Assembly (NCBI GenBank): GCA_014898425.1
Contig: RCSZ01000014.1
Location: forward strand, 1,054,001 to 1,118,000
Reading direction: 5' to 3'
Source of the DNA: Botryotinia globosa
Taxonomy: Eukaryota; Ascomycota; Leotiomycetes; Helotiales; Sclerotiniaceae
DNA length: 64,000 nt
Made by a program: the position numbers and the translations under genes. The first letter of the stretch is position 1, and every line of letters starts with the position of its first letter. Positions 41,278 to 49,061 of the stretch are shown piece by piece. The notes beneath the pieces are model-generated. The model made no database searches and was not told the DNA's origin. It saw only the letters and a program-made list of their open reading frames with translations.

Positions 41278-42912
41278 TCAAGAATCGTGAAATGTAATCG
41301 CAATGCGCTCTTTTAACTTTGCCTCCACTCTCCGCGCATCGACAATTGCACGAGCATACAGCTGGCGCGAGGCGATAGCTTTGTCAACCGCCTCAGAAAT
41401 TCCACACAGAAGATGTAGTACGTATTGACTGAGCAAGCGGGCCGAGAGCATGCGATCAGTTTTAGCTGCGAAAGACCCAAAGCGCATCTCGACATAACTT
41501 CCTGGACATTGGAAATCGCGGTGGGTTTCAATGATGAAGACCACAACGTCAAAAATTTGGAGGAGACGCACTAGAAGATCAGAGAGTCAGTGTTTCCTGC
41601 TGTAGCAAGACTTGAAAGAAAGTAAGGAGATAAAGCTGCGTTAGAAAATAAAAGGAGAATACATCCTCGAGAGGGAAAAGGGAATGCAATCCGGGGAACA
41701 TGATTATGTATTAAGAACAAAGAAATTGGTGAACAGATTGTACTGACTGTAGTAGCTTATGATCATGAGACCTGTGGCTGTGTCTGCTTCGTCGGTGGTC
41801 GTTGGCTCCTGGGTATCCAAACTGCTGATGAGGCCTGCTGATAACGTTTCAGCATTGCTTGGAGGTAGGTTATTGCCGGCATAGCTTGTTAAAGCATCGA
41901 TGAATCGTTCTGTGGTTTGAAATAATTGTTGCAACCAACTGGTGTCGACGCTGCCATCTTGTTTGGGCGGATTGAGCATTTTATCTTTCTTAGCGGTTTC
42001 CACGGCCTTGACAGAGGTGAGACAGTGATATAATTCGAGATGTAGTTTGGTGAGTTGTTCGACTGGATCGTTGGGTGTATCGCCAAGTTGTGACTGTAAA
42101 TCTGTGATGCTATCTGGTTCTGTGCTTGCTCCGATGATAGTCGCATCAACACCATGAGCAAATAAGCTTGCCGGCAAATCGTTGTACTGTGGGAACAAAG
42201 AGTTTGAATTTTCTAGCCCAGCAAAGGGATAATTCGCATGAGAATTTAGTTGACTTGGGACTTCCCATAACGACCAAATATCAAGATCCGAACCCGTGTA
42301 TGAGGTTGGAGTGATTTGTGTCAAAATAGTACTGCTGCTGCTATCATTGCTGCTACTGTTACCCACGTTTTTGTTTTTCTCCACAAATACGTCCACAGGC
42401 GGGTACATGGCAACACCAATATTATTCGGAGATAGTTCAGCAAATTCAACACCAGCGCCGGCACCCCTACAGCTAGACGTGGAGTCACCGTCAGCTGAAG
42501 GAGACAACGCTACAACCCCGCAATCACTATCCGCCACGGATAAATGTCTCGACTCACTCCCGGAACTTGTCATGCTAACAATTCTAAGACTTGTACCGCA
42601 ATATGGGGATTTATTTTTGTACCGAGCACCATTTATGCTGGCGCTGCCATTATGATTCTTGCGGCGACAGTAGTCTGCTGGCCTGCCCATGCGCTGTAGC
42701 TGTCTGGCAACGCACTCGACGTTGGTAGCCAGGCAACGGTCACAGGCATGTTCACCAGATGACTTTCGAACACATCGTAGCTTTTGGGTATGACATTTTG
42801 CGCATGCAAGTTGTCTCTGTGACTTTTGAACGCCAATATTGATACTTTTGTCAGAGAAATCGAGGAGACGCTCAGAGTGGAACACACCCGTATTCGCCGA
42901 CAAGCGTTGCAT
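41278..42912 (-). CDS. Zn2Cys6 transcription factor, AflR-like
   Basis: Two exons (41748-42912 and 41278-41570; 177-base intron with GTCAGT donor) give about 485 residues. The binuclear zinc cluster is at residues 37-67: C37-x2-C40-x6-C47-x9-C57-x2-C60-x6-C67, within ACAKCHTQKLRC. A basic stretch and RMGRPADYCRRK follow. The middle is Ser/Asn/Asp-rich, as in activation regions. The C-terminal part (TATGLMIISYYMRLLQIFDV, spliced) resembles the AflR-type regulatory domain found in controllers of secondary metabolism. It should act in the nucleus as a DNA-binding activator. No polyketide, peptide-synthetase or tailoring gene is adjacent, so its target is unclear. The frame is intact. Confidence 0.82.
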
Positions 42913-47000: not shown

Positions 47001-47411
47001 CTAGCTGGGTAGGTATTAGAGCTTCAGCTTCATCGTGGTTTGGACTTTGTAGCTGGACTACTATTAGTAGGTTCGTAAAGAGGAAATCGAGTAGAATGAA
47101 TGAAGTTGTATAGGTAATTCTTCTTGGGCAGTTCAGTTGAACATGATTTATTAAGGGCTAAGGTATACAGAGTACACATTAGGTAGTCCGTCCATACAGT
47201 GCAACTTCCTCATTACACAAAAAACGAAGTGGATCATCTCGAATGGAGAGGTTGCAAGGTGACCAAAGGTTGAGGTGTTGGCAGAAAGAGACATCATACA
47301 CATCCATACGGCAGAACAGGCGGTCAAGGCTGTTTGTCACATTTGTTACTTCGTCAAACATGTTTGCACTAACTGGCCTCTCCCTTAGTGCGCACAGGCC
47401 ACTACCCAGCA
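44086..47411. other. Long intergenic region
   Basis: About 3.3 kb. It has several open frames of 60-92 codons on both strands, including 45935-46186 plus, without recognisable domains or splice-linked partners. I see no RNA gene or repeat. The right end is the upstream region of the U2 snRNA gene. Confidence 0.5.
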
Positions 47412-47419
47412 TCTATATA
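47412..47419 (+). promoter_or_regulatory. TATA-like element of the U2 snRNA gene
   Basis: CTATATAA lies about 41-48 bases upstream of the U2 5' end, a reasonable position for the core promoter of a fungal snRNA gene. Confidence 0.5.
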
Positions 47420-47459
47420 AACGTCTTCTCTCTCCCTGATTCAAGATTTTTTTTTCTTT

Positions 47460-47720
47460 AGCTCTCTTTGCCTATTGGTAAGTTACCCCCTACTTTTTAC
47501 AACTCTTCACAATCTTTATTATGATTCTTTTGCTAACAAGACTTTCTCTATAGGCTTAGATCAAGTGTAGTATCTGTTCTTTTCAGTTTAATCTCTGAAA
47601 GATCGTCACAGACGGTCACATTGATTATACTTATTTTTGTCCCTCGGGATTGGTCCGCTGTGCTTGCGCATGATCACTCCCACGGTTTCCCTGGTATTAC
47701 ACTGCCTCCAGGTGAAGCGA
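47460..47720 (+). ncRNA. U2: U2 spliceosomal snRNA, interrupted by an mRNA-type intron
   Basis: U2 snRNA base-pairs with the intron branch site in the spliceosome. Exon 1 (about 47460-47477) is AGCTCTCTTTGCCTATTG. Exon 2 starts at 47554 with GCTTAGATCAAGTGTAGTAT. Joined, they give the conserved fungal U2 5' domain. Landmarks: branch-recognition GTAGTA at 47567-47572; stem-loop IIa with TTTCAG/CTGAAA at about 47581-47600; a hairpin GATCGTC/GACGGTC at 47601-47617; the Sm site ATTTTTG at 47633-47639; a stem-loop III-like GGGA/TCCC structure at about 47645-47681; and stem-loop IV with CCTGG (47690-47694) and CCAGG (47708-47712) around TATTACACTG. The exact 3' end is uncertain, about 47712-47725. 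The order, spacing and motifs fit a genuine gene; it is the only copy seen in the window. Confidence 0.93.
47478..47553 (+). other. 76-base spliceosomal intron inside U2 snRNA
   Basis: Donor GTAAGT at 47478, branch site TGCTAACA at 47531-47538, acceptor CTATAG ending at 47553. The branch A lies about 18 bases from the acceptor, normal for this genome's mRNA introns. Removal joins GCCTATTG to GCTTAGATC, restoring the stem-loop I sequence that is otherwise uninterrupted in U2. Confidence 0.88.
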
Positions 47721-48184
47721 ACAACTTCTTTTCATTACAAATTTGGGCTTGCCTGGGTTGTGAAGAAGAGTCTTGGGGTGACATGGTTTAAGTTATGTTC
47801 CAGTAAGTGGTGTGAATTCTTTTGAACAGCATGCTTTCTGTTGAATGCCGCGGTGATGAAACTATAGTGATGTGGGTTTAAATGCGGTTCTGGCAACTGG
47901 CATGTGTAGTTGTATTGTTGTATCTTGTAGTTAGTTGTATTTGCATTTAACATCATCATGAATCATGGTAATTCTCATTTTGAACCTTTCCTTTTTCATG
48001 CGTTGTATATAAAATCGCGTGCGCGACATTGATGTCATGACGCGTTGTGAAATGTACCATTCGTATTGATGGTAAAATATTTTGCTTGTGTGACGTGAAA
48101 TTTATTCTTCAAAGCTCAACCTTTGAAGCAAATCTACAAAGTAAACCCCCCACCACATTACCCCTCCAATAATCTTCAAGTAAA
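47721..48184. other. Downstream of U2 / upstream of translin gene
   Basis: No gene seen. GTGATGA at 47853-47859 resembles a snoRNA box C, but no box D follows at a suitable distance. Confidence 0.45.
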
Positions 48185-49061
48185 ATGTCGGATCTCAATG
48201 GAATGGTTGACCCAAAGATCTTTGAAGATCTACAAACTAAGATTGATGAAGATGCGGAAGTAAGAGATCAACTGAAAGCTATTCTACAAACATTGGAGAG
48301 GCAATGCAGAAATGCTCAGTCAGTTTTATCTCGAGCTCATTCCACGCCTGCTTCTCACTGTAAGTCTTCCAAAGCCGGCTGTTTAGACCCCGCCATCTAA
48401 CATTTCATAGTGCAGCCCGTTCTTGTCTCTGCAGAGAATGCCATAAAGGAAGAAGCTGAAAGTATTCAAAAGCTTGCGGGCATTGCTTCAAACCATCCAT
48501 ATTACAAGTATGCGCTGCGGATTCTACGATGAAATGCCTCACTAACAAGAATAGATATAATGGGATCTGGACAAGAGATGTGCAGAATGTGATCTTTGCC
48601 ATTCTTCTCTGCGGATGGCTGGGGGGTTTAAACAAAGATGGAAAGCCTGCTCAGTCAGGAAGACTTCTCACTATTGAGGAAGTAGGAGAGATTCTCCAAG
48701 GTACTTTGCACACAGATTCTCTACGAATAGCACAGCTAACGAGATAATAGTCCCCGTCAACCTCAAAGACCGAGACGCATTCCACATCAGTATCGAAGAA
48801 TACCTCCTCTCCCTCATTTCCTTGATCGAAGAGCTTTCACGACTGGCTATCAATTCCGTTACTCTCGGAGATTACCAGAGACCTCTACAAATCAGTCAAT
48901 TCGTTAAGGATTTACATGCAGGATTCCAGATTCTCAATTTGAAGAATGATGTTCTGAGGAGAAGAAGTGATGGTATCAAGTACAATGTGAAGAAGATTGA
49001 GGATATTGTCTACGATCTTTCGTTGAGAAATTTGGTGGCTAGACCTGAATCTTCATCTTGA
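48185..49061 (+). CDS. TSN: Translin
   Basis: Translin is a nucleic-acid-binding protein that, with TRAX, forms the C3PO endoribonuclease. Four exons (48185-48359, 48411-48507, 48555-48700, 48751-49061; introns of 51, 47 and 50 bases) join in frame to 242 residues, close to the usual length of about 230. Family blocks are DPKIFEDLQTKIDEDAEVRD near the N-terminus, AENAIKEEAESIQKLAG, the FAILLCGWLGGL segment, and the C-terminal FHISIEEYLLSLISLIEELS and RLAINSVTLGDY blocks ending in YDLSLRNLV. The protein should be largely alpha-helical. TRAX is not present in the window. The frame is intact. Confidence 0.92.

Follow-up and report, generated by a model that had tools for sequence, protein, structure and literature searches.

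Is the U2 snRNA gene of the ascomycete Botryotinia globosa split by a spliceosomal intron, and would its RNA then be needed for its own maturation? The locus lies in a window of 64 kb, by which we mean the whole stretch of DNA that was analysed (C14:1054001-1118000, in a genome of 45.7 Mb on 27 contigs); positions given without a contig are those of the window. A sequence-only reading had proposed a 76-base intron near the start of the gene and a built-in feedback, in which U2 would have to recognise the branch site of its own precursor.

Parts of the window U2 gene and the boundary of its intron

In an Rfam scan of the window, RF00004 (U2) gave a single match above the cut-off within the 64 kb, at 47539-47726 with 130.9 bits (gathering score 46). 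The alignment is good from GGCUUAGAUCAAGUGUAGUAUCUG on, and stem I is the part that fails: letters of the intron are forced into the 5' end of U2, leaving 4 empty model positions, and the four inner pairs of stem I are unformed.

The order at the locus is CTCTCTTTGCCTATTG, then GTAAGT...GCTAACA...CTATAG, then GCTTAGATCAAG, all on the plus strand. Exon 1, whose start is presumed, occupies 47460..47477 (18 bases, with AGCTCTCTTTGCCTATTG as its end at 47477) and holds the helix II strand and the 5' part of stem I. The spliceosomal intron covers the 76 bases 47478..47553; its branch site GCTAACA is at 47532..47538 with the branch A at 47536, and 17 bases lie between this A and the final intron G inclusive. 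Exon 2 (47554..47726), which starts with GCTTAGATCAAG and carries the 130.9-bit match, contains helix I and the branch-binding core (GTAGTA), stems IIa and IIb, the Sm site, and stems III and IV. The ATTTTTG at 47633..47639, positioned from the sequence, is what we take to be the Sm-type site. Outside stem I, 35 of the 38 helix pairs of the window U2 are standard pairs, and the fold of exon 2 has a z of -3.27 (0 of 200 shuffles equally stable). RNAfold predictions for whole U2 sequences departed in places from the textbook U2 fold, and the pair counts were made independently of it.

The downstream neighbour at 48185-48747 on the plus strand is likely a multi-exon translin gene, with a PF01997 match to the open reading frame at 48529-48744. 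Among the other proteins of the window, that at 41704-42909 equals EAF00_009878 of Botryotinia globosa at 100% identity over 97% of its length, and one with a SET domain shares 87% identity with its B. cinerea relative.

PMC5832005 gives the fungal intron consensus as GTRWGT, RCTRAY and YAG, with 6-36 bases from branch to acceptor. The 76-base intron fits this consensus in its GT-AG ends, donor, branch, length and branch distance. The strict pattern GTAAGT-N30..110-RCTAAC-N6..36-YAG has one plus-strand match in the 64 kb, starting at 47478, and none on the minus strand; a chance occurrence is therefore unlikely. The proposed split of U2 by a 76-base intron with GTAAGT, GCTAACA and AG was thereby confirmed at 47478-47553, within the gene that RF00004 scores at 130.9 bits.

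To locate the boundary we scored 180 deletions, starting at 47353-47532 and all ending at 47553, against the Rfam U2 5' consensus. The deletion starting at 47478 ranked 1 of 180 with a score of 44, compared to 26 without deletion. The neighbouring starts 47479, 47480, 47477 and 47481 scored 42, 39, 36 and 36, and the runner-up among the six deletions that begin with GT scored 33. Removal of the intron at this site restores the conserved start of U2, as the sequence-only reading had claimed. These results demonstrate, at the level of the DNA, the parts of the gene, their spacing and the rebuilding of U2 by exact intron removal.

Stem I was calculated at -7.7 kcal/mol with the exons joined and at -2.5 kcal/mol in the unspliced sequence, which agrees with the earlier placing of the intron within stem-loop I. 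Stem-loop I and the helix II strand are present only once the exons are joined. The 25 bases that end together with exon 1 were calculated to pair with the 3' portion of the fungus's own U6 at -14.6 kcal/mol, a value equalled by 21 of 1000 shuffles, compared to -7.1 kcal/mol for the unspliced 25 bases (572 of 1000 shuffles equal); 10 of 1000 sampled 25-mers from the window reach -14.6 kcal/mol with U6. Deletions that start 1-4 bases later pair with U6 equally well or better (-16.0 to -16.7 kcal/mol), so that the helix II test speaks for exon 1 but does not fix where exactly it ends.

Promoter elements of the window U2

From a TATA box (TATATAA, 47414..47420, plus strand) it is 46 bases to 47460, where the RNA presumably starts, and 125 bases to the unspliced Rfam start. 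The distance from TATA box to Rfam start is 51, 39 and 53 bases at three U1 loci, 45 at U4 and 30 at U5, where the start is uncertain. The box at 47414 is the only TATA[AT]A in the 150 bases before the donor and its spacing fits exon 1. There is no TATA[AT]A box inside the 76-base intron.

Farther upstream, at 47363..47378 on the plus strand, lies an element, TTTGCACTAACTGGCC, that is common to two U1 loci and U4. A matrix made from U1, U1 and U4 only, that is, from three training sequences of which two are U1 genes that agree at 141 of 145 positions, ranked the U2 site as the best of 127,970 window sites, with a score of 23.1 against 12.9 for the next. A genome-wide pattern, written from U1, U1, U4 and the window U2 themselves, had 5 exact matches, namely these four genes and a further locus, L018; with at most one mismatch it had 12 genome matches compared to 5 for a reversed control. 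A strong upstream element is absent from the third U1 locus (5.1), from U5 (7.9, weak) and from the second U2 locus described below (1.8). As the third U1 locus lacks the element and that of U5 is weak, the element is not required of every snRNA gene. A second shared motif, GCGCACAGGCCA, was picked out by eye at 47390..47401 on the plus strand, and a similar motif occurs upstream of one U1 and of both U3 loci.

The locus L018 (C15:948934-948949, minus strand) has the exact element together with a TATA box, and the sequence downstream contains internal repeats. Up to an E of 0.1, nothing in Rfam matched this downstream sequence. L018 is possibly an undescribed small RNA gene.

A second U2 locus and its bearing on self-dependence

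A covariance-model search of the genome, which the sequence-only reading had suggested as a check on whether the window copy is the only one, showed that it is not. Two U2 loci were found among the best 46 of 1418 candidates scored, the window gene and a copy on contig C2 (L002, C2:1961777-1961972, minus strand, 68.9 bits). With up to 2 mismatches, the core TTAGATCAAGTGTAGTATCTG likewise occurs at two places in the genome only, the window and C2; further copies are possible, given that only the best 46 of the 1418 candidates were scored. By covariance-model score both loci are U2: cmscan matched U2 in both and no U12 (RF00007). A genome search with RF00007 gave 0 matches, but the control likewise gave none. 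In exact scans for the U2 core there were 0 occurrences in viral contigs and 0 in bacterial and archaeal contigs.

The C2 copy is intronless and runs uninterrupted through TCTCTTCGAATTTTGCTTAGATC. Its core is close to that of the window U2 (29 of 32 identical at model positions 19-50), while over positions 19-192 the two agree at 90 of the 169 positions with letters in both, and over 51-192 at 61 of 137. In alignments that were each fitted to the U2 model, a procedure that favours pairing, 17 of the 38 helix pairs outside stem I are doubly changed between the copies with pairing kept, 4 are changed on one side and 8 are unaltered; of the broken pairs, 6 belong to C2 alone, 1 to the window copy alone and 2 to both copies. 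With the partners slid by 1-3 positions, the doubly changed pairs fell from 17 to 1-4, and when the 3' letters of C2 were permuted, at least 17 were reached in 20 of 10,000 trials (mean 10.8). The 30 of 38 standard pairs of C2 were reached in 0 of 10,000 letter permutations.

Other features of the C2 copy are uneven. A TATA box lies 51 bases before its Rfam start, and it pairs with U6 at -12.8 kcal/mol (25 of 1000 shuffles equal). On the other hand, the 300 bases upstream contain no snRNA upstream element (best score 1.8), the short fold has only -2.0 kcal/mol with the canonical stem I absent, and the overall fold has a z of -1.75 (9 of 200 shuffles equally stable). The 17 of 38 helix pairs that are doubly changed yet paired suggest that C2 is probably a real U2. 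It resembles an ancient duplicate whose structure has stayed under selection, and from its sequence features we think that it may be a weakly or specially expressed U2 variant.

An intact, uninterrupted and expressed U2 gene elsewhere, together with the lack of a spliced transcript from the window locus, had been named in advance as the observation that would turn the window locus into a pseudogene. An uninterrupted locus was found on C2, at 68.9 bits, but it is the poorer copy and lacks the upstream element. Could the window gene be a decayed U2 broken by an insertion, with C2 as the true U2? The uninterrupted C2 sequence, its TATA box at a fitting distance, its 29 of 32 core positions and its U6 pairing of -12.8 kcal/mol agree with this reading. 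However, the window copy scores higher as U2 (130.9 compared to 68.9 bits) and folds better (z of -3.27 compared to -1.75), it has the upstream element that is missing at C2 (best 1.8), and the insert carries full intron signals at the exact place. Given this score, fold, element and set of intron signals, a broken copy is very unlikely. It could also be supposed that the intron is never spliced and that U2 has an alternative 5' end within it, which would account for the start of the Rfam alignment at 47539, inside the intron. An RNA of this kind would have to start from an intron with no TATA[AT]A, although the sole TATA[AT]A in the 150 bases before the donor suits exon 1; its intron-derived 5' end would leave inner stem I unformed and pair weakly with U6 (-7.1 kcal/mol), and Rfam errs in the same way at the intron-bearing U3 and U6 loci. 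With no TATA box in the intron and inner stem I unformed, we consider such a start extremely improbable.

The remaining alternative concerns C2, which might be a dead pseudogene and leave the intron-bearing gene as the sole, strictly self-dependent U2. The absence of the upstream element and of a canonical stem I (short fold of -2.0 kcal/mol), the 6 of 38 helix pairs broken in C2 alone and a fold only modestly above shuffles (z of -1.75, 9 of 200 equally stable) are in keeping with it. Neutral decay would not be expected to leave a core of 29 of 32 identical positions beside 61 of 137 at positions 51-192, nor does it sit well with 17 of 38 pairs doubly changed with pairing kept, as against 1-4 when slid and a count reached in 20 of 10,000 permutations. 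The 30 standard pairs of 38, reached in 0 of 10,000 permutations, speak the same way, with the caveat that the alignments were fitted to the U2 model. We therefore regard a dead C2 copy as unlikely. The explanation in which we have considerable confidence is that the window holds a working and probably the main U2 gene whose precursor is spliced, that C2 probably encodes a U2-like RNA, and that self-dependence is likely partial. Transcription, splicing and main-copy status of the window gene are what we infer from its sequence.

For the window gene the following maturation pathway can be proposed. A snRNA-type promoter would give a U2 precursor with the 76-base intron after about 18 bases; the spliceosome would remove the intron, rebuild stem-loop I and connect the helix II strand with the core that pairs with U6 and with the branch site. 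Unspliced U2 would keep the branch-binding core and lose stem I, with the helix II strand 76 bases away. The intron interrupts the 3' strand of stem I behind its first G and immediately before GCU. By analogy to other species, we take these three bases to be the partners of U6 AGC in U2/U6 helix Ib; the letters for this pairing are present in the window U2 and in U6.

Since splicing requires U2, the feedback would be a positive one: low U2 would lead to less U2 maturation. The feedback in the sequence-only reading is thus possible, but obligatory self-splicing does not follow, as there is an uninterrupted U2 locus on C2 and both may work. The strict loop in which U2 needs itself is not established in view of the intronless C2 locus, and the existence of this U2-like locus means that the window gene need not be spliced or used for the U2 of the cell. 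The C2 RNA could help to splice the window precursor or provide a minimum of U2, and for this reason the self-dependence is likely partial. It could be speculated that there are two distinct working U2 RNAs, a canonical one that needs splicing and an anciently diverged intronless starter, and that these form a positive-feedback circuit with a U6 that also bears an intron; we doubt that the full circuit exists.

Introns of other small RNA genes and known systems

The search for U6 reported one locus (L004, C4:934494-934597 and upstream, minus strand) among the best 47 of 3947 candidates scored. An intron of 54 bases, GTAAGT...ACTAACA...TTAG, apparently splits this locus between GGGCATT and TGGTCAATTTG; the exact exon joint is presumed from the splice signals and from fungal U6 sequence. 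Two U3 loci were found (L026 and L027, C11:312560-312825 and C9:1340275-1340535), of which one is uninterrupted and the other has an intron of 107 bases; the flanks of this intron, when joined, equal the intronless U3 sequence exactly. At the U2, U6 and intron-bearing U3 loci alike, the Rfam models pull the end of the intron into the 5' end of the RNA, so that similar introns may be hidden in other fungal annotations.

Three U1-like loci scored 65.5, 65 and 54.2 bits, all below the cut-off of 69.5. The last of these (L011, C3:2601719-2601872) is diverged, with 118 of 159 aligned positions matching the first U1, and the upstream element is missing from it (5.1), as it is from the C2 U2. No intron-sized gap was found in the three U1-like, one U4 and one U5 loci, all of which were matched by their models from end to end. 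Where the 5' end is poorly conserved, these models can take up an intron unnoticed, so that a hidden intron is possible, in U5 especially.

How does the window U2 compare to known systems? The U2 intron of Rhodotorula hasegawae, a basidiomycete, reportedly lies just downstream of the branch-recognition region and has a length of about 60 bases. In contrast, the intron of B. globosa, an ascomycete with an additional intronless U2 locus, interrupts stem I, upstream of that reported position. As the R. hasegawae intron is reported to lie at another site, that of B. globosa looks like an independent insertion in Ascomycota. Among the references of PMC2586383 is a title that puts on record an mRNA-type intron in the U2 gene of R. 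hasegawae (Takahashi et al. 1993, Mol Cell Biol 13:5613), and on the strength of that title the two fungi are alike in having a U2 with an mRNA-type intron. The sequence-only reading knew of no documented case in this fungal group. Consistent with this, there was no report of an ascomycete U2 intron among the matches listed in the open-licence literature, which does not establish the claim.

Introns in fungal U6 genes are a known phenomenon, and mRNA-type introns in U6 of Schizosaccharomyces and of many fungi are said to have been described by Tani and Ohshima in 1989 and Canzler et al. in 2016. The fungal U6 introns resemble that of the B. globosa U2 in that the gene of a catalytic snRNA is interrupted, and the U6 of B. 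globosa apparently is as well; they differ in that Schizosaccharomyces and the other fungi have the intron in U6 while the gene in the window is U2. In fungal U3 genes, as PMC5832005 describes them, the introns are in the 5'-most stem-loop, as in the B. globosa U2. The same paper lists U3 genes of B. cinerea with and without intron (2 and 1, respectively), the pattern seen in the U3 of B. globosa and, in kind, in its U2. The U3 pair with and without intron, as in B. cinerea, is a check of our approach on a known case. Unlike U2, U3 is a snoRNA outside the spliceosome, and its introns therefore entail no self-dependence.

For the U6 intron of fission yeast, a passage of PMC10484740 gives reverse splicing as the presumed origin. 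Reverse splicing had also been put forward for the window U2 intron, and the position of the intron beside the U2/U6 helix I strand fits such an origin. A donor for the insertion did not emerge: when the genome was searched with the intron at E up to 10, by a method that skips very common words, no similar sequence was found apart from the intron itself.

What appears to be new here is the lineage, apparently also the position, the presence of a diverged paralog that has no intron, and the apparent interruption of both U2 and U6 in one genome. Introns in snRNA genes bear on reverse-splicing insertion near the catalytic core and on a splicing machine that depends on its own product. As B. globosa naturally has one U2 gene with an intron and one without, self-dependence can be put to a direct test. 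If the circuit of two U2 RNAs were true, both catalytic snRNAs of this fungus would need the spliceosome for their own making, with a built-in starter.
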